A stretch of 34,761 bases of DNA from Chitinophagaceae bacterium (lineage in GTDB: Bacteria > Bacteroidota > Bacteroidia > Chitinophagales > Chitinophagaceae). The notes under the pieces are model-generated. The model was given only the letters and a program-made list of their open reading frames with translations. It had not been told where the DNA came from and did not search any database. The position numbers and the translations under genes were made by a program. Of this stretch, positions 10,164 through 28,063 are shown in pieces. The stretch covers positions 1-34,761 of the forward strand of contig JAOAGO010000029.1 of the NCBI GenBank assembly GCA_026415715.1, given 5' to 3'. Numbering within the stretch: the stretch's first letter is position 1; each line of letters starts with the position of its first letter.

Positions 10164-10379
10164 ATGAAAAAACTATTTGCTATTGCATTTTTAGCTACGG
10201 CTTTGGTAGCTTGCGACAACAAGGGTAAAGAAAATCAAGGTGATCAACCTGCTGACACAACGCAGCAAACCCAGCCTGCTACCCCTCCTGCAGCCGATAC
10301 TGCCGCTCAGGCTCCTGCTGCTGACACAGCTGCTAAAGCTCCTGCTGCTGATACCACTAAAAAAGCAGAAAGCAAGTAA
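10164..10379 (+). CDS. small repeat lipoprotein
   Basis: This 71-residue protein has a signal peptide with lipobox LVAC (Cys17), so it should be lipid-anchored. The mature part is a low-complexity Pro/Ala/Asp/Thr/Gln chain with about 2.5 copies of a 9-residue unit (APAADTAAK/Q) and a Lys-rich end. It is probably disordered. It diverges from the ECF sigma factor gene, and a strong terminator follows. Small Ala/Pro-rich lipoproteins can act as envelope spacers or stress products; a link to the sigma factor is suggested only by position. Confidence 0.75.
   Translation: MKKLFAIAFLATALVACDNKGKENQGDQPADTTQQTQPATPPAADTAAQAPAADTAAKAPAADTTKKAESK
10287..10358 (+). repeat. 27-bp tandem repeat within the lipoprotein gene
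   Basis: About 2.5 degenerate 27-bp units encode AADTAAQAP / AADTAAKAP / AADT. Copies differ at wobble positions, so the repeat is not freshly duplicated, but the unit number could still vary between strains. Confidence 0.6.
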
Positions 10380-10409: not shown

Positions 10410-10443
10410 AAAGTCCATCCATCCGGATGGCTTTATTTTTTTT
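10410..10443 (+). terminator. intrinsic terminator after the small lipoprotein
   Basis: AAAG-CCATC (10410-10419, one bulged T) pairs with GATGG-CTTT (10426-10434), followed by ATTTTTTTT. A second perfect 6-bp hairpin (GATTCC/GGAATC, 10384-10398) lies just upstream. Confidence 0.65.
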
Positions 10444-10517: not shown

Positions 10518-10525
10518 TAAATTTG
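10518..10525 (+). promoter_or_regulatory. -7 box TAAATTTG of the pheA leader
   Basis: TAAATTTG is an exact TAnnTTTG match that ends 4 bases before the leader-peptide ATG at 10530. Transcription would then start at or next to the leader start codon. Confidence 0.5.
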
Positions 10526-10529
10526 TAAC

Positions 10530-10613
10530 ATGAATAATTATAAAGCATACCGGTTTTTTGGCTATTATTATTTTTTTGCCGCTAAAAGGCCGGGAATGCT
10601 ATCTGATAACTGA
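10530..10613 (+). CDS. Phe/Tyr leader peptide of the pheA attenuator
   Basis: A 27-codon frame starting at ATG 10530 encodes MNNYKAYRFFGYYYFF followed by AAKRPGMLSDN. Nine of 27 residues are Tyr (five) or Phe (four) and none is Trp. The run of aromatic codons lies at 10548-10577. It is directly followed by an antiterminator strand and a strong terminator, ahead of the genes for prephenate dehydratase, an aminotransferase and prephenate dehydrogenase. This is the classical arrangement of a ribosome-mediated attenuator, in which scarce charged tRNA-Phe or tRNA-Tyr stalls translation of the leader. The peptide itself is not expected to have a function. No Shine-Dalgarno sequence is seen. Confidence 0.88.
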   Translation: MNNYKAYRFFGYYYFFAAKRPGMLSDN

Positions 10614-10671
10614 ACGCAAGCAAAATGATATAAAACAGGTCCCGGTCTCAAAATTGACCGGGATTTTTTTT
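10550..10671 (+). promoter_or_regulatory. Phe/Tyr transcription attenuator
   Basis: Three mutually exclusive pairings can be drawn. Strand 1 (CCGG-TTTT-GGC, 10550-10562) pairs with strand 2 (GCC-AAAA-CCGG, 10578-10593). Strand 2 (GGCCGGGA, 10588-10595) pairs over 8 bases, one of them G-T, with strand 3 (TCCCGGTC, 10640-10647). Strand 3 pairs perfectly with strand 4 (GACCGGGA, 10656-10663), followed by eight T. A ribosome stalled on the Phe/Tyr codons would block strand 1, free strand 2 for the 2:3 antiterminator and allow read-through into pheA. Free translation would restore 1:2 and then the 3:4 terminator. The pairings are read from sequence; the mechanism is inferred from the known his, phe and trp attenuators of Proteobacteria. 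Confidence 0.82.
10640..10671 (+). terminator. attenuator terminator upstream of pheA
   Basis: TCCCGGTC (10640-10647) and GACCGGGA (10656-10663) are exact complements with an 8-base loop, followed by eight T (10664-10671). It lies between the leader peptide stop and pheA. Confidence 0.9.
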
Positions 10672-10714
10672 AATAAAATTTTACTGGTAAGTGAGTAAAT
10701 CAGAAAACAAGGAA

Positions 10715-11539
10715 ATGCGGTTTGCCATTCAGGGTTATGAAGGCAGCTTTCATCATTTGGCGGCTGAATATTTGTTAGGCAAACAAGTAAAGGTAATTCC
10801 CTGCGATACCTTCAGAGAGGTTGTGAAAACAGCTGCCGTAAAAAAATTATCCGACGGCGCCGTTATGGCTATTGAAAATTCCATAGCCGGAAGCATACTG
10901 TCAAATTATAACCTGTTACATAAAAGCAACCTGAAAATTGCCGGCGAGTTGTATTTGCAGATCAAACATCATTTGTTGGCCAATCCGGGGGTTCGAATAG
11001 AAGACATTCGCGAAGTGCATTCTCATACCATGGCGCTTCAGCAGTGTAATGATTTTTTGGAAAAATATCCGTGGAAGCTCGTAGAAACGGAAGATACGGC
11101 GCTCAGCGCCAGGCACATTCATCAGCATAAAAGTAAACATATTGCCGCCATAGCCGGAAAGCTGGCCGCAGAATTATACGGACTGAATATTCTGGTCGCC
11201 AACATTCATTCATCTAAGCATAATTATACGCGGTTTTTGTTGCTCCGCAGAGAAGAAGATGTTCGGATGCCTGATCAGGCAGACAAGGCTTCCGTGATGT
11301 TTCATACCAATCATACCCGTGGCAGTTTGGCAAAAGTGTTGGTACGGATAGCCAACCGGGGAATTAATCTTAGCAAGCTGCAAAGTTTTCCTATTCCGGG
11401 CACTGATTTTAAATATGCTTTTCATGCCGATCTGGAATTTGAAACACTGTCACAGTTTCATCGGGTAATTGAAGATATTAAGCCGGTAACGGAAAATATA
11501 AAAGTTTACGGTATATATAAAAAAGGATTATGGAAATAA
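10715..11539 (+). CDS. pheA: prephenate dehydratase with ACT domain
   Basis: The enzyme converts prephenate to phenylpyruvate, the committed step to phenylalanine. The catalytic domain shows ENSIAGS and NYTRF, matching the family ENSxxGS and TRF motifs. The C-terminal ACT domain (from about GSLAKVLVRIANRGINLSK) should bind Phe for feedback control, but the usual ESRP motif reads QSFP here. At 274 residues it is monofunctional; no chorismate mutase domain is attached, and that activity comes from the fusion protein at 13662. I chose ATG 10715 because family members begin directly before xxAIQG; a GTG at 10691 would add eight polar residues. It overlaps the next gene by 10 bp. Confidence 0.94.
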   Translation: MRFAIQGYEGSFHHLAAEYLLGKQVKVIPCDTFREVVKTAAVKKLSDGAVMAIENSIAGSILSNYNLLHKSNLKIAGELYLQIKHHLLANPGVRIEDIREVHSHTMALQQCNDFLEKYPWKLVETEDTALSARHIHQHKSKHIAAIAGKLAAELYGLNILVANIHSSKHNYTRFLLLRREEDVRMPDQADKASVMFHTNHTRGSLAKVLVRIANRGINLSKLQSFPIPGTDFKYAFHADLEFETLSQFHRVIEDIKPVTENIKVYGIYKKGLWK

Positions 11540-12681
11540 AAACGGCAGAACGAATTAACACGGTTCAGGAATATTATTTTTCTCAGAAACTGAGAGAACT
11601 GGAACGTTTGAAAAAAGAAGGAAAAAAAATTATTAACCTGGGCATCGGCAGTCCGGATTTACCTCCTCATCCGGATGTTATTAAGGTTTTGCAATCCGAA
11701 TCAGAAAAAAAAGATGTTCATGCCTACCAATCCTACCGTGGCGATTATCGTTTGCGTAGCGCCATTTCGGAATGGTATAAAAAATGGTATCATGTCAGTA
11801 TTGATCCCGAAACAGAAATTTTACCCCTGATTGGCAGCAAAGAAGGCCTTATGCATATTTGTATGGCTTATCTTAACCCCGGTGATGAAGCGCTGGTTCC
11901 CAATCCGGGTTATCCGACGTATGCCGCCGCTGTTCGGTTGGCAGGCGCCGGCGTGAGAGAATATCCTTTGAAACAAGAGAATCAATATTTCCCCGATTTG
12001 AATGCTTTGCGAAAACAGAAAACAAACAGGGTAAAGCTGATGTTTGTCAACTATCCGCACATGCCAACAGGAAGAACACCCGAAATGGAATTGTTTAAAG
12101 ACCTGATAGCATTCGCTTATGAAAACAATATTTTACTGGTACATGATAATCCGTACAGCTTTATTTTAAATGATTCACCCCTTAGCCTCCTGGCTGTAGA
12201 AGGTGCGATGGATGTGGCATTGGAATTGAATTCTTTAAGTAAAAGCCATAACATGGCCGGTTGGCGGGTAGGGATGCTTTGCGGCCGCGCCGACAGAATT
12301 GAAGCTGTTCTTCGCTTTAAGAGCAATATGGATAGCGGTATGTTTTTGCCGGTGCAATTGGCAGCGGCCAGGGCACTGAAATTAGATAAAAACTGGTATG
12401 ATGATTTAAACAGAATTTACCGGCAGCGACGGGAAGCCGTTTATGACATGCTCAACAAACTGAATTGTTTCTATGATAAGCAACAGGCCGGATTGTTTGT
12501 GTGGGCAAAAGTGCCCGAAGGTTATGACGACGGCTTTCGGTTTAGTGATGATTTATTGTATAAGAAAGATATTTTTATTACCCCGGGCGGAATTTTCGGA
12601 AGCGAAGGAAATCATTATATCCGTGTAAGCTTGTGTAGCCATAAGGAAATATGGGATGAAGTTTTGATGCGTTTATCTTAA
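11530..12681 (+). CDS. class I/II aminotransferase, probably aromatic
   Basis: This is a fold-type I PLP enzyme of 383 residues. The PLP lysine is Lys238 in SLSKSHNMAGWR, with HDNPYS (205-210) carrying the conserved Asp-x-x-Tyr of the cofactor pocket. NYPHMPTG (174-181) replaces the more usual NYPNNPTG, and PGYPTY is at 126-131. Lying between pheA and tyrA and overlapping pheA by 10 bp, it most likely transaminates phenylpyruvate and 4-hydroxyphenylpyruvate to Phe and Tyr. The sequence alone would also fit an aspartate or LL-diaminopimelate-type aminotransferase, so the substrate is inferred from context. Confidence 0.88.
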   Translation: MEIKTAERINTVQEYYFSQKLRELERLKKEGKKIINLGIGSPDLPPHPDVIKVLQSESEKKDVHAYQSYRGDYRLRSAISEWYKKWYHVSIDPETEILPLIGSKEGLMHICMAYLNPGDEALVPNPGYPTYAAAVRLAGAGVREYPLKQENQYFPDLNALRKQKTNRVKLMFVNYPHMPTGRTPEMELFKDLIAFAYENNILLVHDNPYSFILNDSPLSLLAVEGAMDVALELNSLSKSHNMAGWRVGMLCGRADRIEAVLRFKSNMDSGMFLPVQLAAARALKLDKNWYDDLNRIYRQRREAVYDMLNKLNCFYDKQQAGLFVWAKVPEGYDDGFRFSDDLLYKKDIFITPGGIFGSEGNHYIRVSLCSHKEIWDEVLMRLS

Positions 12682-12692
12682 AAGCATAAATC

Positions 12693-13544
12693 ATGATGAA
12701 CCGAAAAATTATTGCAATCGTCGGTACGGGTTTAATCGGAGGTTCGTTGGCGCTTCGGCTGCATGAAAAAAAATTAGCTTCAAAAATTATAGGAGTGGAG
12801 TCTGATCCGCTGCATGCAAAGAAGGCGATGGAGATGGAATTGGTAGATGAAATTTTGCCTCTGGAAGCAGCTATTTCCGTTTCTGATGTAATAATACTTT
12901 CTGTACCTGTTGATGCCATAATACAGCTTTTACCCCTTGTACTGAACCGGGTGAATCGTCAGATTGTAACCGATGTGGGTTCAACCAAATGGCATGCGAT
13001 ACAGACAGTAAAAGATCACCCCGGGCGGGGTCGTTATGTACCGGCCCATCCGATGTGGGGAACCGAATACAGCGGCCCTGAGGCAGTAGTTAAAGATGCT
13101 TTTGAAAATAAAGCGGTTGTAATGTGCAATAAAGAAGAAAGCGATGAAGATGCCTGGCAATGGGTGCATGATATGTACAAAAAAATCGGGATGCACATTG
13201 TGGAAATGGATGCCCGGTCTCATGATTTACATGCTGCTTATGTAAGCCATATTTCACACATTACTTCATTTGCTTTGGCAAATACCGTACTTCAAAAAGA
13301 AAAAGAAGAAAAGGCCATTTTTGAACTGGCCAGTGCCGGATTTGAAAGCACGGTACGGCTGGCCAAAAGTAATCCCCAAATGTGGGCGCCTATTTTTTTA
13401 CAAAATAAAAATTACATACTCGATGTGCTGGATGAACATCTGGTTCAATTGAATAGATTTCGTGAGGCTATTGAAAATGAAAATGAAGCCATGTTGCATC
13501 AGTTAATTTCTGAAGCAAACCTGATTAAAAAAATTATCCGTTAG
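12693..13544 (+). CDS. tyrA: prephenate dehydrogenase
   Basis: TyrA oxidatively decarboxylates prephenate to 4-hydroxyphenylpyruvate, the step to tyrosine. The Rossmann motif GTGLIGGS (11-18) binds the nicotinamide cofactor. DVGSTK and HPMWGTEYSGPEA are hallmarks of the prephenate/arogenate dehydrogenase family, with the conserved His of the substrate pocket. At 283 residues it has no ACT or chorismate mutase domain. It follows the aminotransferase by 11 bp and should be under the same Phe/Tyr attenuator. Two ATGs in tandem (12693 and 12696) make the exact start uncertain by one codon. Confidence 0.94.
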   Translation: MMNRKIIAIVGTGLIGGSLALRLHEKKLASKIIGVESDPLHAKKAMEMELVDEILPLEAAISVSDVIILSVPVDAIIQLLPLVLNRVNRQIVTDVGSTKWHAIQTVKDHPGRGRYVPAHPMWGTEYSGPEAVVKDAFENKAVVMCNKEESDEDAWQWVHDMYKKIGMHIVEMDARSHDLHAAYVSHISHITSFALANTVLQKEKEEKAIFELASAGFESTVRLAKSNPQMWAPIFLQNKNYILDVLDEHLVQLNRFREAIENENEAMLHQLISEANLIKKIIR

Positions 13545-13661: not shown

Positions 13662-14747
13662 ATGAATGAAACGAAAACCGCAACCTCAGCTTTGTTAAAC
13701 GTTTGGCAAAAAAGACCGCTTATTATCAGCGGACCTTGTAGCGCCGAAACAGAACCTCAGGTGCTGGAAACGGCAAAGCAACTGGCACAAACAGGTAAAG
13801 TGGATATCTTGAGGGCCGGAATCTGGAAGCCGCGTACAAAGCCGGGTATGTTTGAAGGCGTTGGCGCCAAGGGTCTTCCCTGGTTGCAAAAAGCAAAACA
13901 GGAAACGGGATTACCTGTAACTGTGGAAGTGGGAACATCAAAACAGGTAGAAGATGCGTTGACTTTTGAAGTAGATGTTTTATGGATAGGTGCCCGAACT
14001 ACAGTTAACCCTTTCAGTGTACAGGAAGTGGCCGACGCTTTGCGGGGCGTGGATATTCCTGTATTGATTAAGAACCCCATTAACCCTGACCTGGAACTCT
14101 GGGCCGGAGCTGTAGAAAGAGTAGCCCGTGCCGGCATTAAACACATTGGGTTAATTCACAGGGGATTCAGTGCTTTCGGAGTAACGGATTACCGAAATGC
14201 TCCGATGTGGCACCTGGCTATTGAAATGAAGTTGCGTTATCCGGAACTGCTGTTTATAAATGACCCTTCTCATATTTGCGGGCGTCGGGATATTTTGCAG
14301 GAAACAATGCAGAAAGCTATTGACCTCGACTATGATGGTCTGATGGTAGAAAGCCATATTGATCCTGACAATGCCTGGAGTGATGCCCGGCAACAGATTA
14401 CTCCTCAGCGTTTTGCCGAAATTCTGAATCAACTGATCTGGAGAAAAGAAGATGTTGATTCGGCATCTTATCATGCCGCACTGGAAAAACTAAGACAGCA
14501 AATCAATCAGTTAGATGATGAACTGATCACCTTGTTAGGCAAGAGAATGAAGCTTGCCGAGCAAATCGGCCTGTATAAAAAAGAACATCAGATAACTATT
14601 CTGCAAACTGCCCGGTGGAATGAAATTATGAACAGGGCCCTTAAGCGAGGCGAAACACTGGGGCTGAGTAAGGAATTTATCACAAGGTATTTCGATGCGG
14701 TTCATATGGAAAGCATCAATCATCAGAAAAAAGTGATGGACGGATAA
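13662..14747 (+). CDS. bifunctional DAHP synthase / chorismate mutase
   Basis: The N-terminal ~265 residues are a KDO8P-synthase-like (type I beta) DAHP synthase: ISGPCSAE, LRAGIWKPRTKPGMFEGVG and FINDPSHICGRRD carry the metal- and phosphate-binding residues. It condenses phosphoenolpyruvate and erythrose 4-phosphate, the first step of the shikimate pathway. Residues ~270-358 are an AroQ chorismate mutase (KLRQQINQLDDELITLLGKRMKLAEQIG), which makes prephenate. The mutase domain is C-terminal; in related enzymes it acts as the allosteric sensor for prephenate or aromatic products. It supplies the mutase activity missing from pheA and tyrA. A promoter-like box lies directly upstream, and aroB follows after 30 bp. 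Confidence 0.95.
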   Translation: MNETKTATSALLNVWQKRPLIISGPCSAETEPQVLETAKQLAQTGKVDILRAGIWKPRTKPGMFEGVGAKGLPWLQKAKQETGLPVTVEVGTSKQVEDALTFEVDVLWIGARTTVNPFSVQEVADALRGVDIPVLIKNPINPDLELWAGAVERVARAGIKHIGLIHRGFSAFGVTDYRNAPMWHLAIEMKLRYPELLFINDPSHICGRRDILQETMQKAIDLDYDGLMVESHIDPDNAWSDARQQITPQRFAEILNQLIWRKEDVDSASYHAALEKLRQQINQLDDELITLLGKRMKLAEQIGLYKKEHQITILQTARWNEIMNRALKRGETLGLSKEFITRYFDAVHMESINHQKKVMDG

Positions 14748-14777: not shown

Positions 14778-15830
14778 ATGAGAGAGATTACGGTTCGCAT
14801 CAACAACAAAAACACGGCTTATTATTTTTCGGGGTCGTTTCAGCAATTAAAAAAAATAGTTAATCCCGGATATGCTGTTCTGATTACTGATACGAATGTA
14901 TATAAATCCCAACTCAAAATATTTAAAGGATGGAATACCATTGTGCTGAAACCCGGAGAAAAGTATAAAGTACAACAAACGGTTGACAGTATCATCAGCC
15001 AGCTGATTCGGATGAAAGCAGATCGCTCTATGACATTGATTGGCGTGGGAGGAGGCGTGATTACGGATATTACCGGTTATACCGCTTCCATTTACCTGCG
15101 TGGCGTTTCCTTTGGTTTTGTTCCTTCTTCTCTTCTGGCCATGGTAGATGCCGCAATCGGAGGCAAAAACGGGGTGAACGTGGGTGCGTATAAAAATATG
15201 GTGGGAATAATCCGCCAGCCGGATTTTATTTTATTTGACGTTTCGCTTTTAAAAAGCTTACCGGTAAAAGAATGGAGAAACGGCTTTGCCGAAGTAATTA
15301 AACATGCCTGCATAGCCGATAAAAAGATGTTCCGCTTTCTGGAGCAACGGAATCCGAATGTGTTGATGAAAGATCTTGCAGAACTGGAAATGTTGATTGA
15401 ACGTAATGTAATGCTTAAGACAAAGGTGGTGAAAAAGGATGAATTTGAGCGTAACATACGGCGACATCTGAATTTTGGCCATACCCTGGGGCATGCGCTT
15501 GAGCGACAGTTTGATATTTCACATGGAGAGGCCATTTCTGCCGGGATGGTCTTTGATGTGTATCTGTCTGAAAAACTCATGAACTTCGGCGATGTGAAAC
15601 GAATTTTGCAACTCCTGAAACAATATGATTTGTTGCTTTCTTTTTCGTTTCCTTTACGGAAAACCATGCAGCTCATATCAGGCGATAAGAAAAAAGAAAA
15701 ATCATTCATTCACTATGTATTGCTGAAAAACATCGGGAGTGCCGTAACATACCCTGTTTCATTACAGCAGTTGGAAAAACATCTCAAACTTTTTCTGCAA
15801 AAAAATGAAAGTATCCGTAAATCCTTCTGA
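14778..15830 (+). CDS. aroB: 3-dehydroquinate synthase
   Basis: AroB cyclises DAHP to 3-dehydroquinate with NAD and a divalent metal. The NAD-binding GVGGGVITDITGY is present, as is the active-site run SSLLAMVDAAIGGKNGVN. The metal ligands fall in FAEVIKHA and LNFGHTLGHALE. Length (350) is normal. It begins 30 bp after the DAHP synthase fusion and overlaps aroA by 26 bp, so the three are surely one transcript. The shikimate steps between this enzyme and aroA (dehydroquinase, shikimate dehydrogenase, shikimate kinase) are not in the window. Confidence 0.95.
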   Translation: MREITVRINNKNTAYYFSGSFQQLKKIVNPGYAVLITDTNVYKSQLKIFKGWNTIVLKPGEKYKVQQTVDSIISQLIRMKADRSMTLIGVGGGVITDITGYTASIYLRGVSFGFVPSSLLAMVDAAIGGKNGVNVGAYKNMVGIIRQPDFILFDVSLLKSLPVKEWRNGFAEVIKHACIADKKMFRFLEQRNPNVLMKDLAELEMLIERNVMLKTKVVKKDEFERNIRRHLNFGHTLGHALERQFDISHGEAISAGMVFDVYLSEKLMNFGDVKRILQLLKQYDLLLSFSFPLRKTMQLISGDKKKEKSFIHYVLLKNIGSAVTYPVSLQQLEKHLKLFLQKNESIRKSF

Positions 15831-17109
15831 ATTGAGGGGCATAATTCAGGCGCCGCCTTCAAAAAGTTGTATGCAACGGGCATGTGCCGCAGCTTTGCTA
15901 CGGAAGGGAGTAAGTTATATTTTCAATCCCGGGTATTCCGCAGATGATGAGGCTGCCATTAATATCATCCAAAAATTGGGCGCGGAAGTACATAAAGACC
16001 GTGACGGCCTTCGCATCATCTCGAACGGCATACAACCAAATCATGATGTGCTGGATTGCGGCGAAAGCGGGCTGAGCATCCGGATGTTTACACCTCTTGC
16101 TGCCCTCAGCGATCGGCGTATGACAATCACCGGATCCGGTAGCCTTACCCGAAGACCCATACATTTTTTTGAAGAAATTCTTCCCAAACTGAATGTTTAC
16201 ATACAAACACAGCAAGGGAAATTACCTCTTGTAGTGAAAGGCCCTCTGCAGGCAAAGAATATTGAAGTGGATGGTTCGCTGAGCTCTCAGTTTTTAACCG
16301 GTTTACTGATGGCTTATAGCATTTCGGATCGTAGGGAAGAAAATACCGTTATCAAAGTAAATAACCTGAAAAGCAAACCCTATATCAGTCTTACACTGGA
16401 AGTTATGCGGCATTTTGGACTTGCCGTTCCTGAAAACCGCGACTTTACTGAATTTGTATTTTCAAACAACAGGCCTCAGTCTGTTTCAGACCATCCGGTT
16501 GAATATGATGTGGAAGGCGACTGGAGCGGTGCAGCCTTTTTATTGGTAGCAGGCGCCATCAGGGGACATATTACGGTAAGGGGGTTGAATGTGATGTCGC
16601 ATCAGGCCGATAAAGCAATTGTAGAAGTATTGACGCAGGCACAGGCAGCCCTGGCCTACGAAAGAAAAAGTATAACTATTCATACTTCCGACCTGATTCC
16701 ATTTGGTTTTGATGCAACGGATTGCCCCGATTTATTTCCTCCTCTAGCCGTGCTGGCTTTACATTGTAAAGGAACCAGCCGGATTAAGGGAGTACACCGG
16801 CTGGAGCATAAAGAAAGCAACAGGACTTCAGCTCTTTTGAATGAATTGGGTAAAATGGGAGGCAGGTTGTATGTTAAAGATGACGAACTGATGATTGAAG
16901 GCGGCAACAGGCTCAGGGGCGCAGAGGTCCATTCGCATCATGACCATCGCATTGCCATGGCCTGTGCAGTGGCGGCATTAATAGCTGAAGGAACAACCAC
17001 AATTGATGGAGCGGAATCCGTGAAGAAATCCTATCCGCATTTTTTCAACGACCTGAAACAGCTCGGAGCTCATGTTCAGTTTCCGTCAGTGCTGAATTAT
17101 TTGAAATAA
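15805..17109 (+). CDS. aroA: 3-phosphoshikimate 1-carboxyvinyltransferase (EPSP synthase)
   Basis: The enzyme joins shikimate 3-phosphate and phosphoenolpyruvate. PPSKSCMQRACAAALL (17-32) corresponds to the usual SKS substrate loop, SLSSQFLTGLLMA to the second substrate site, and HHDHRIAMA to the conserved DHRMAM motif. The PEP loop reads CGESGLSIRMF, unlike the NAGTAMRP of E. coli or the NSGTTxR of other classes; this looks like a lineage form. At 434 residues it has full length. The ATG at 15805 lies inside aroB (26-bp overlap), a sign of translational coupling. Confidence 0.95.
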   Translation: MKVSVNPSELRGIIQAPPSKSCMQRACAAALLRKGVSYIFNPGYSADDEAAINIIQKLGAEVHKDRDGLRIISNGIQPNHDVLDCGESGLSIRMFTPLAALSDRRMTITGSGSLTRRPIHFFEEILPKLNVYIQTQQGKLPLVVKGPLQAKNIEVDGSLSSQFLTGLLMAYSISDRREENTVIKVNNLKSKPYISLTLEVMRHFGLAVPENRDFTEFVFSNNRPQSVSDHPVEYDVEGDWSGAAFLLVAGAIRGHITVRGLNVMSHQADKAIVEVLTQAQAALAYERKSITIHTSDLIPFGFDATDCPDLFPPLAVLALHCKGTSRIKGVHRLEHKESNRTSALLNELGKMGGRLYVKDDELMIEGGNRLRGAEVHSHHDHRIAMACAVAALIAEGTTTIDGAESVKKSYPHFFNDLKQLGAHVQFPSVLNYLK

Positions 17110-17202: not shown

Positions 17203-18204
17203 ATGAATTCATTTGGTCGTCTCTTCAGGGTTTCCGTTTTTGGAGAATCGCACGGCGAGGGCGTGGGGGTAGTGATTGACGGTTGCCCGGCAGGTCTCCC
17301 GTTAACGCAGAATGATTTTCTCGCCGACCTGGAAAGAAGAAAGGGCGGAATGCAAAAAGGGGCTACACCCAGAAAGGAAGATGATATACCTCAACTGAAA
17401 AGCGGAATTTTTAACGGTAAAACCACCGGATTTCCCATTATGATTTTTTTCGAAAATAAAAATGTACGCTCCCAGGATTATGAAAAACAAAGAAGTATTC
17501 CCCGGCCCGGACATGCAGATTGGGTAGCGCATCAGAAGTTCGGCGGTTATGAAGATTATCGCGGAAGCGGCCATTTCAGCGCCAGGCTAACGGTAGGGTT
17601 GGTGGCTGCCGGCGTTATTGCCAAAAAACTAATGCCGGAATTAAACATTGAAGCAAAACTGATTGAAGCCGGGGGTGAGAGGGATATTGAAAAAGGAATA
17701 CAAAAGGCCATTGAAGCCAAAGATTCGGTAGGAGGCATTGTGGAATGCAGGGTACAGAATTCTCCGGTAGGCCTTGGTGAGCCTTATTTTGATTCCGTTG
17801 AATCGGTGCTTTCGCATATTTTATTTTCCATACCTGCCGTTCGCGGTGTGGAGTTCGGAACCGGATTTGCCGCAGCCCGCATGTTTGGCAGCGAACACAA
17901 CGATGCTATTGTAGATATGTCAGGTAAAACCCGTACCAACCATGCCGGGGGTATCGTGGGAGGAATTACCAACGGAAATGAAATCCTTTTCCGCGTTGCA
18001 TTTAAACCCACGTCTTCAACGCCAAAAACACAGCATAGCCTGAACTGGGATAGCGGTAAAACAGAAGATTTTTCAGTAAAGGGACGACACGATTTATGTG
18101 TGGCCTTAAGAGCACCTGTTATTGTAGAGGCAGCTACAGCCATCACTTTGGCTGATTTCATGTTGTGTGCTCAAAAAATTTCACCGGTGTTAAACTGCGA
18201 ATAA
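17203..18204 (+). CDS. aroC: chorismate synthase
   Basis: AroC removes phosphate from EPSP to give chorismate, using reduced FMN. Family signatures are visible: GESHGEGVGVVIDGCPAG (14-31), DYRGSGHFSARLTVGLVAAG (the usual form is HFSARET), and GRHDLCVALRAPVIVEA near the C-terminus with the conserved Arg-His-Asp. At 333 residues it is somewhat shorter than the ~350-360 norm, mainly at the C-terminus. It closes the shikimate gene group and is convergent with the dipeptidase gene, with only 15 bp between stops. Confidence 0.94.
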   Translation: MNSFGRLFRVSVFGESHGEGVGVVIDGCPAGLPLTQNDFLADLERRKGGMQKGATPRKEDDIPQLKSGIFNGKTTGFPIMIFFENKNVRSQDYEKQRSIPRPGHADWVAHQKFGGYEDYRGSGHFSARLTVGLVAAGVIAKKLMPELNIEAKLIEAGGERDIEKGIQKAIEAKDSVGGIVECRVQNSPVGLGEPYFDSVESVLSHILFSIPAVRGVEFGTGFAAARMFGSEHNDAIVDMSGKTRTNHAGGIVGGITNGNEILFRVAFKPTSSTPKTQHSLNWDSGKTEDFSVKGRHDLCVALRAPVIVEAATAITLADFMLCAQKISPVLNCE

Positions 18205-27940: not shown

Positions 27941-27997
27941 ATGGTACGATTTTTAGGACATACTTGGCGTTGGCATACAACTCCGTTGGGGCTGTAA
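27941..27997 (+). CDS. trpL: Trp leader peptide of the trp attenuator
   Basis: An 18-codon frame encodes MVRFLGHTWRWHTTPLGL. Two Trp codons (27965-27967 and 27971-27973) flank one Arg, far above the expected frequency in so short a peptide. The frame ends just before the terminator hairpin that precedes trpE. The last three codons (TTG GGG CTG) contain the antiterminator strand, so a ribosome finishing the peptide would cover it. This is the standard logic of a ribosome-mediated trp attenuator. The peptide sequence is not similar to the enterobacterial TrpL; the assignment rests on position, Trp codons and RNA pairing. Confidence 0.88.
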   Translation: MVRFLGHTWRWHTTPLGL

Positions 27998-28052
27998 GTC
28001 AGCGTTTTTATTTATTATAAAACGATCAGCCCCGGTTATTCCGGGGTTTTTT
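27986..28052 (+). promoter_or_regulatory. Trp transcription attenuator
   Basis: GGGGCTG (27988-27994), inside the end of the leader gene, is the exact complement of CAGCCCC (28027-28033), extended by G-T pairs. That segment overlaps the 5' arm of the terminator (CCCCGG, 28030-28035), so the two structures exclude each other. A small competing hairpin GCTG/CAGC (27991-27994 with 28000-28003) can hide the antiterminator strand after the ribosome leaves. A ribosome stalled at the Trp codons would reach to about 27985 and leave GGGGCTG free, giving read-through. A ribosome at the stop codon would mask it, giving termination. Confidence 0.85.
28030..28052 (+). terminator. attenuator terminator upstream of trpE
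   Basis: CCCCGG (28030-28035) and CCGGGG (28041-28046) pair perfectly around TTATT, followed by six T (28047-28052). It ends 11 bases before the trpE ATG. Confidence 0.9.
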
Positions 28053-28063
28053 ATTATTTGGAT

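Follow-up and report, generated by a model that had tools for sequence, protein, structure and literature searches.

A probable Phe- and Tyr-sensing leader-peptide attenuator before the pheA-aminotransferase-tyrA operon of a Chitinophagaceae bacterium and its counterparts in Bacteroidia

Directly upstream of a pheA-aminotransferase-tyrA gene group in a Chitinophagaceae genome (2.6 Mb in 96 contigs), a short open reading frame (ORF) crowded with Phe and Tyr codons is followed by an intrinsic terminator, which raises the question of whether translation of this ORF controls the genes behind it and, if so, to which of the two amino acids it responds. We addressed this in the window (i.e., the whole 34,761-nucleotide stretch of DNA that was analysed) and in related genomes. 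A Phe/Tyr leader-peptide attenuator, as had been proposed in a sequence-only reading of this DNA, emerges as the best explanation, given its recurrence, the controls, the covariation, and the codon content of the leaders: the element is very probably a ribosome-mediated transcription attenuator that senses both Phe and Tyr and controls pheA-aminotransferase-tyrA, and the aro genes that follow are probably under its control as well. The features of the locus are as follows.

10518..10525, + strand: -7 promoter box TAAATTTG (consensus TAnnTTTG), predicted transcription start at 10530
10530..10613, + strand: leader peptide ORF, ATG at 10530 and TGA at 10611-10613, reading MNNYKAYRFFGYYYFFAAKRPGMLSDN
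10544..10562, + strand: segment 1, 5' side of the 1:2 hairpin in the minimum-energy fold, weakly supported in relatives
10581..10600, + strand: segment 2, partner of segment 1 or, via GGCCGGGA (10588-10595), of segment 3 (antiterminator)
10637..10647, + strand: segment 3, terminator 5' arm and alternative partner of segment 2
10656..10672, + strand: segment 4 and U-tract, terminator 3' arm
10637..10672, + strand: intrinsic terminator, arms 10637-10647 and 10656-10666, loop 10648-10655, T-run to 10672
10691..11539, + strand: pheA, prephenate dehydratase (best family match, below the curated cut-off)
11530..12681, + strand: PLP-dependent aminotransferase (best matches LL-diaminopimelate/aspartate aminotransferase models, below cut-offs)
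12693..13544, + strand: tyrA, prephenate dehydrogenase (above the curated cut-off of NF006307)
13662..14747, + strand: aroF-CM, DAHP synthase-chorismate mutase fusion (below curated cut-offs)
14778..15830, + strand: aroB, 3-dehydroquinate synthase (above cut-off)
15805..17109, + strand: aroA, EPSP synthase
17203..18204, + strand: aroC, chorismate synthase

The leader, its helices, and the predicted transcription start

Re-reading of the ORF bore out the proposed leader at the proposed coordinates, with five Tyr, four Phe, and no Trp codons among its 27, and with the aromatic codons within codons 4-16. For pheA, alignment with relatives suggests that the conserved start may be ATG 10715 instead of 10691. 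On the 5' side of the leader, inspection by eye finds an Ala/Pro/Thr-rich small ORF that ends at 10379 and a second T-rich hairpin at about 10415-10443. At two related loci (L261 and L263), the 5' neighbour is instead an ORF with what we take, by eye, to be DEAD-box helicase motifs; the upstream neighbour varies, and the leader keeps its place before the operon.

The minimum-energy fold of positions 10525-10675 (-44.2 kcal/mol) is far more stable than 200 dinucleotide shuffles of the same stretch (-26.5 ± 3.4 kcal/mol, z = -5.1, with 0/200 as good) and comprises the 1:2 hairpin and the terminator. In this fold, the 1:2 helix is formed by 10550-10562 with 10581-10593, extended by 10544-10548 with 10596-10600; the sequence-only reading had the helix and its 5' strand right but had taken 10578-10593 as the partner. 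The competing antiterminator, for which it had named both strands correctly, pairs GGCCGGGA (10588-10595), inside the ORF, with UCCCGGUC (10640-10647) in the terminator 5' arm. When folded as free RNA with a ribosome stalled at codons 11-14 (stall points being set one base late) and with the RNA ending before the terminator 3' arm, the stretch 10578-10655 folds via GGCCGGGA:UCCCGGUC at -15.7 kcal/mol.

A promoter box that matches the TAnnTTTG found at -12 to -5 in Flavobacterium (PMC9723704) lies at 10518-10525, so that +1 is predicted to fall on the A of the leader ATG. When any early in-frame ATG is allowed, the box is found 11-18 nt 5' of the leader start codon in 74 of 98 Chitinophagaceae-like leaders, but before none of the 282 other ORFs of 150 aa or longer at these loci (a set that includes within-operon genes and chance ORFs). 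The commonest distance is 15 nt, which corresponds to a 5' UTR of about 3 nt. The box is seen at this distance in 4 of 12 leaders of family f18 and in 1 of 51 in the remaining groups together; where it is seen in other lineages, it is mostly 23-49 nt upstream. Leaders of Chitinophagaceae are thus predicted to start leaderless or near-leaderless. Elsewhere in the phylum, leaderless mRNAs make up only a small share, a reported 5.5% in F. psychrophilum (PMC9723704), and 5' UTRs shorter than 10 nt are reported for 3.7% in B. thetaiotaomicron (PMC7366714).

From the ORF and its alternative helices, together with the covariation, recurrence, and codon-gene link seen by comparison and described below, we infer the following course of transcription start, translation, stalling, termination, and read-through. 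Transcription would begin at the leader ATG or within a base or so of it, and the leader would be translated from a leaderless mRNA. When Phe and Tyr are plentiful, the ribosome would clear the aromatic run, cross segment 2, and leave at the stop codon, upon which segments 1:2 and 3:4 would pair and transcription would end at about 10672. If either tRNA-Phe or tRNA-Tyr runs low in its charged form, a ribosome stalled in the mixed run would cover segment 1, so that segment 2 could pair with segment 3 and block formation of the terminator; the operon would then be transcribed. Because Phe and Tyr codons lie in the same stretch, either shortage should suffice (an OR gate).

Recurrence and structural conservation in relatives

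We gathered 231 loci, weighted towards near relatives and towards families with PheA, of which 218 have enough, distinct upstream DNA; G020 and L032 (Chitinophagaceae bacterium Ww72), which share the same leader peptide, were dropped as duplicates, and nine loci in all were removed at this step. By a strict criterion (at least six Phe/Tyr in ten residues, followed by a terminator), leader and terminator are found in 161 of the 218 distinct pheA upstream regions (164/224 before closer duplicate removal), and in none of 672 dinucleotide shuffles, 316 upstream regions of other ORFs, or 218 antisense strands. Among the 57 regions below the strict criterion, 14 have an aromatic short ORF by a looser limit, which admits some false positives and which L074 passes in a longer, 500-nt stretch only, and 43 have neither. 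The presence of a leader and terminator before pheA is not due to chance. That the hairpin is an ordinary terminator of an upstream transcript, or a chance structure, with no regulatory role, could draw on the separate T-rich hairpin upstream, as terminators are evidently not rare here; given that the controls yield no case against 161 of 218 and that a -7 box of its own stands directly 5' of the leader, we regard this explanation as exceedingly improbable.

Loss of the frame or of its aromatic codons in close relatives, which the sequence-only reading had named as the observation that would speak against it, was looked for in the genus. A PheA match is present in 15 of 34 other same-genus genomes, and 14 of these 15 keep the frame, the aromatic run, and the terminator directly 5' of pheA; in the fifteenth (G021), the leader stands 5' of tyrA instead and has Tyr codons. 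As a side observation, 15 genomes of the genus, of 1.5-2.1 Mb, have no PheA match (G002, G003, G006, G007, G011, G013, G014, G016, G017, G022, G023, G025, G029, G033, and G034), which suggests that Phe synthesis was lost in a reduced-genome branch; four larger ones (G001, G005, G008, and G030) likewise have none.

Further afield, a short ORF with at least five Phe/Tyr in ten residues lies within 420 nt at 76 of the 77 named loci with enough upstream DNA (80 named loci in all). Besides the named loci, leaders with terminators by the strict criterion come from 11 families sampled within the class (f1, f12, f18, f19, f23, f25, f28, f29, f71, f82, and f116), and five families that belong to other classes of the phylum contribute one each (f36, f39, f48, f54, and f67); leader and terminator are also present at L133. 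Families without a match include, for instance, f3 (0/4), f81 (0/7), f84 (0/2), and f43 (0/2), and in f25 (Flavobacterium-like; 6 of 11 loci) and f31 (2 of 2 loci), an aromatic ORF is present and no terminator was recognised. A covariance model built from 40 Chitinophagaceae leaders matches 169 of 294 genomes of the family; on 77 relatives, it gives 25 matches, 23 of them before pheA and two (G001 and G021) not. L099, from a record titled Verrucomicrobiota bacterium Hm464_bin137, likewise has a PheA of Bacteroidota type (49% identity to the query), preceded by a leader rich in Phe and a terminator; the presence of this locus in a record named as another phylum points to transfer or misbinning.

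At 13 of the 161 loci, there are two separate leaders, each with its own terminator and both Phe/Tyr-rich: four in Chitinophaga, five in Hymenobacter or f29, one in a Bacteroidales MAG, and three in f18. In the Chitinophaga loci (L076, L079, L083, and L087), the first tandem leader has a Trp codon near the end of its aromatic run (FFWYQE or YFWFRK).

Covariation of the stems, proposed earlier as a check, was assessed in an alignment of 40 Chitinophagaceae leaders, five rows of which are visibly shifted in the terminator region; it is seen for the terminator and the antiterminator and weakly for the 1:2 helix. In the terminator, 16 cells are changed on both sides (0/500 shuffles), as are 4 pairs (31/500 shuffles); the antiterminator has 7 such pairs and 14 such cells (0/500 shuffles for each). 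The covariation scores are 0.236 for the terminator and 0.105 for the antiterminator, compared with at most 0.084 and 0.068, respectively, for slid versions; in raw counts, the margin of the antiterminator is modest, as slid versions reach up to 6 pairs and 10 cells. The antiterminator includes an inner stem, UUGUUGA:UCAACA, which accounts for an odd conserved stretch 5' of the terminator. For the 1:2 helix, which is paired in 84% of cells, 4 pairs (35/500 shuffles) and 6 cells (4/500 shuffles) are changed on both sides, and a slide of -2 yields more such changes (5 pairs and 10 cells). The 1:2 pairing had been proposed as the competing default; it is strong in the window fold but weakly supported by covariation in relatives.

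Pairing of segment 2 with segment 3 was examined in 178 leaders of the 164-locus set, in which duplicate removal was looser and which was also used for the peptide statistics and the swap tests. No more than 5 of 100 shuffles pair better in 144 leaders, and none does in 91; the remaining 34 pairings are no better than shuffles at the 5% level. In those 144, the median distance from the last aromatic codon to the start of segment 2 is 7 nt (quartiles 6-9); in 11 of them, segment 2 lies upstream instead. When leaders were swapped between loci, the own leader ranked in the best 5% for 28, and in the best 10% for 37, of the 61 loci whose arm is other than CCCGG; for the 103 loci with a CCCGG arm, which were ranked against the leaders belonging to the other group, the corresponding numbers are 57 and 71.

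These data bear on whether the small ORF might instead encode a functional aromatic small protein, with the terminator merely parting it from pheA. A short ORF that is long conserved and of biased composition would fit such a protein. However, the segment 2 motif CCGGG, which 89 of 164 leaders have, falls in each of the three reading frames (49, 11, and 29), which argues that it is the RNA, not the peptide, that is kept in this C-terminal part; moreover, the length of the peptide varies from 13 to 56 aa, its aromatic content changes with gene content, and terminator and antiterminator covary. We therefore consider a small-protein function very improbable.

Codon content and the genes behind the leader

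At least two Phe and at least two Tyr codons are found in 152 of 154 distinct leader peptides. Phe is the commoner codon, and the last aromatic codon is Phe in 107 of 153. One of the two exceptions, L102 (Labilibaculum), has 8 Phe and 0 Tyr codons and precedes a lone pheA with no pathway gene within 3.0 kb downstream. The other, L099, has 8 Phe codons and 1 Tyr codon and a DAHP synthase gene directly 3' of pheA; its contig ends 1.8 kb after pheA, so a tyrA may follow further on.

The opposite situation, a leader away from pheA, was found for both covariance-model matches of this kind, G001 before aminotransferase-tyrA and G021 before tyrA, both of which are Tyr-dominated. We also surveyed TyrA in 248 genomes of the order, to be compared with a PheA survey of an equal number drawn alike. 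An aromatic leader and terminator are present in 8 of 13 upstream regions of tyrA operons that lack pheA (one of these regions being only 506 bases long). In five genomes without a PheA match (by profile search for G183, G094, G122, and G268 and by single-sequence search for G001), the leader stands before tyrA or aminotransferase-tyrA, and its core has Tyr:Phe counts of 6:0 (G183), 4:1 (G094), 5:0 (G122), 4:0 (G268), and 5:2 (G001). A core with at most one Phe is thus seen in 4 of 5 pheA-less genomes and in 0 of 77 leaders of confirmed pheA+tyrA operons (Fisher 2.9e-6; because the loci are related, this and the other p-values are optimistic and indicative only). The five genomes represent five genera and three families; mixed-leader relatives were sampled for f1 and f18, and f21 is otherwise absent from the sample. 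With G021 included, there are six Tyr-rich leaders; in four of them, pairing to the terminator arm surpasses that of 98% of shuffles, and for G183 and G021, it lies at 6.5% and 5% (13 and 10 of 200 shuffles). One Trp codon lies in or beside the Tyr run of the Phe-free, Tyr-only leaders L304/L329 (G183), L307 (G122), and L312 (G268), an observation on three cases only; among all 153 leaders, 42 have a Trp codon, and Trp makes up 1.1% of leader residues.

The correspondence between codons and genes has its exceptions. Mixed leaders precede pheA-aroF-aroA-aroC in f23, where no tyrA was found in 4.1 kb, and are likewise present in f82 and in G249, with no tyrA found within about 4 kb downstream; across nine loci with pheA and no detected tyrA, the Tyr share is not different (p = 0.94). 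A rule by which Tyr codons occur only if tyrA is in the operon is ruled out by these mixed leaders, although a divergent tyrA may be missed, since the tyrA of three other class-level loci was matched only at E values of 1e-6 to 1e-8. In tyrA operons with pheA elsewhere in the genome, the leaders of G133, G156, and G176 are mixed and that of G021 is Tyr-only. With the exceptions of f23, f82, G249, G133, G156, and G176, the control codons appear to follow the amino acid that the operon makes, and we read the leader as carrying codons for whichever amino acids that genome needs the operon's genes to make. The earlier suggestion that the mixture of Tyr and Phe codons matches the genes that the leader precedes holds to the same extent, with operon and genome content taken together.

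Alternation of Phe and Tyr codons was considered as a designed feature and rejected as a general one: 766 switches are seen in 153 peptides compared with 647 ± 16 expected, yet the count is 60 versus 59.8 in 15 clusters at <50% identity.

It could be asked whether the attenuator is ribosome-mediated but senses Phe only, with the Tyr codons as bystanders. There is a precedent in the Phe-Tyr-Phe leader AroR of C. glutamicum, reported to respond to Phe and not to Tyr (PMC11802643), which means that the Tyr codons of a mixed leader may have no effect, and the preponderance of Phe, also as the last aromatic codon, would agree with this. A Phe-only sensor does not, on the other hand, account for two or more Tyr codons in all but two leaders, nor does it predict the Tyr-only or Tyr-dominated leaders of G021 and the five genomes in which no pheA was detected, and we judge it unlikely, though less so than the other alternatives. 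Control by another kind of RNA switch (a T-box, a riboswitch, or an attenuator bound by a protein), with the ORF incidental, would be compatible with the terminator and the alternative structure taken alone. Searches of the window and the loci of six relatives against Rfam (amino-acid leaders and T-box among the families) gave no match at the gathering threshold, the best sub-threshold match being Thr_leader at 21 bits of the 55 needed; in addition, Tyr-rich codons accompany the absence of pheA, and segment 2 mostly lies a narrow distance past the aromatic run. We consider such a switch very improbable. Membership in a family curated in Rfam is rejected on the same scores. We return to the Phe/Tyr attenuator: as the arrangement recurs in many relatives, the pathway is most likely switched on by ribosome stalling for either amino acid.

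Other short ORFs of this type were noticed in these genomes. In the window, a Trp leader, MVRFLGHTWRWHTTPLGL, lies at 27941-28056, 5' of trpE (ORF from 28058), with a terminator composed of AGCCCCGG-TTATT-CCGGGGTT followed by a T-run, and trpE-like loci of three relatives (L268, L269, and L270) have WWWHT leaders. His-rich short ORFs followed by terminators, e.g., MIKHTHNHHHFLLPTSRL, lie 5' of hisG in the genome itself and in three relatives (L272, L273, L274, and L275). With these His-rich leaders included, leader-peptide attenuators appear to be employed as a set in these genomes.

Relation to known attenuators

On balance, we favor the view that much of Bacteroidia has a home-grown attenuator family that acts as a Phe-or-Tyr OR gate, with codons rewritten when the pathway is cut (Tyr-only after loss of pheA, Phe-only before a lone pheA), a leaderless form in Chitinophagaceae, and two attenuators in series in several lineages. 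If this is true, RNA polymerase and the leading ribosome would stay close together in this phylum, which is reported to start translation without Shine-Dalgarno sequences, and a widespread Phe/Tyr attenuator would offer a natural test of transcription-translation coupling in Bacteroidia. The variants (mixed, Tyr-only, Phe-only, single, tandem, and predicted leaderless) may allow the rules of codon choice to be read, and for Bacteroidota they supply candidate native control parts that respond to amino acids.

Proteobacteria and Actinobacteria are the groups from which classical leader-peptide attenuation is best known. In the E. coli pheA attenuator, the leader peptide PheL is encoded by a short aromatic ORF followed by mutually exclusive helices and a terminator, and the same three elements precede the prephenate dehydratase gene here; unlike in E. 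coli, the leader mixes Tyr with Phe codons, an aminotransferase gene and tyrA belong to the operon as well, and the start is predicted to be leaderless. Regulation of E. coli pheA is reported to depend on Phe-charged tRNA (PMC11802643). In a survey from 2010, the authors stated that, to their knowledge, no such attenuation had been shown outside Proteobacteria and Actinobacteria before their own find in Firmicutes (PMC2965389).

Closer precedents exist. The AroR leader of C. glutamicum, located before aroF (PMC4046766, PMC11802643), resembles the present one in having Phe and Tyr codons 5' of an aromatic pathway gene; the cited texts name only Phe-Tyr-Phe and a response to Phe, whereas the window leader has 9 aromatic codons, stands before another gene in another phylum, and comes with evolutionary evidence for both amino acids. 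Within Bacteroidota, a putative attenuator before pheA>hisHb>aroAIbeta-aroQ>tyrA of B. thetaiotaomicron, i.e., in the same phylum and before the corresponding operon, appears in a table of 2005 that drew on a prediction database (PMC1173090, Table 7); the entry covers one Bacteroidetes genome and mentions neither a leader peptide nor codons. In the same species, short ORFs that resemble leader peptides have been noted (PMC7366714), and in 2021, leader-peptide attenuation was suggested from transcriptome mapping for amino-acid operons of F. psychrophilum, again the same phylum and mechanism, with the operons left unnamed in the main text (PMC9723704). The titles and abstracts that we searched, subscription papers and supplements aside, contain no description of a Phe/Tyr leader peptide in Bacteroidota. 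The sequence-only reading's view that this is not a standard described element needs qualifying in that the hints of 2005 and 2021 and AroR came before.

Two further systems share individual features. The transcript of the leaderless trpL attenuator of Sinorhizobium meliloti, according to its reported 5' end, begins at the leader ATG (PMC7298713), as is predicted here; trpL is a Trp leader from another phylum. The tandem loci recall Salmonella mgtCBR, where two short ORFs and attenuators in series respond to two different signals (PMC3641672), unlike the tandem leaders described here, both of which are Phe/Tyr-rich. The kind of mechanism is thus already known, with precedents in Bacteroidota and C. 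glutamicum; new here are its spread over 11 families of the class, a codon content that tracks the pathway (with exceptions), the predicted leaderless start, and the tandem forms at 13 loci.
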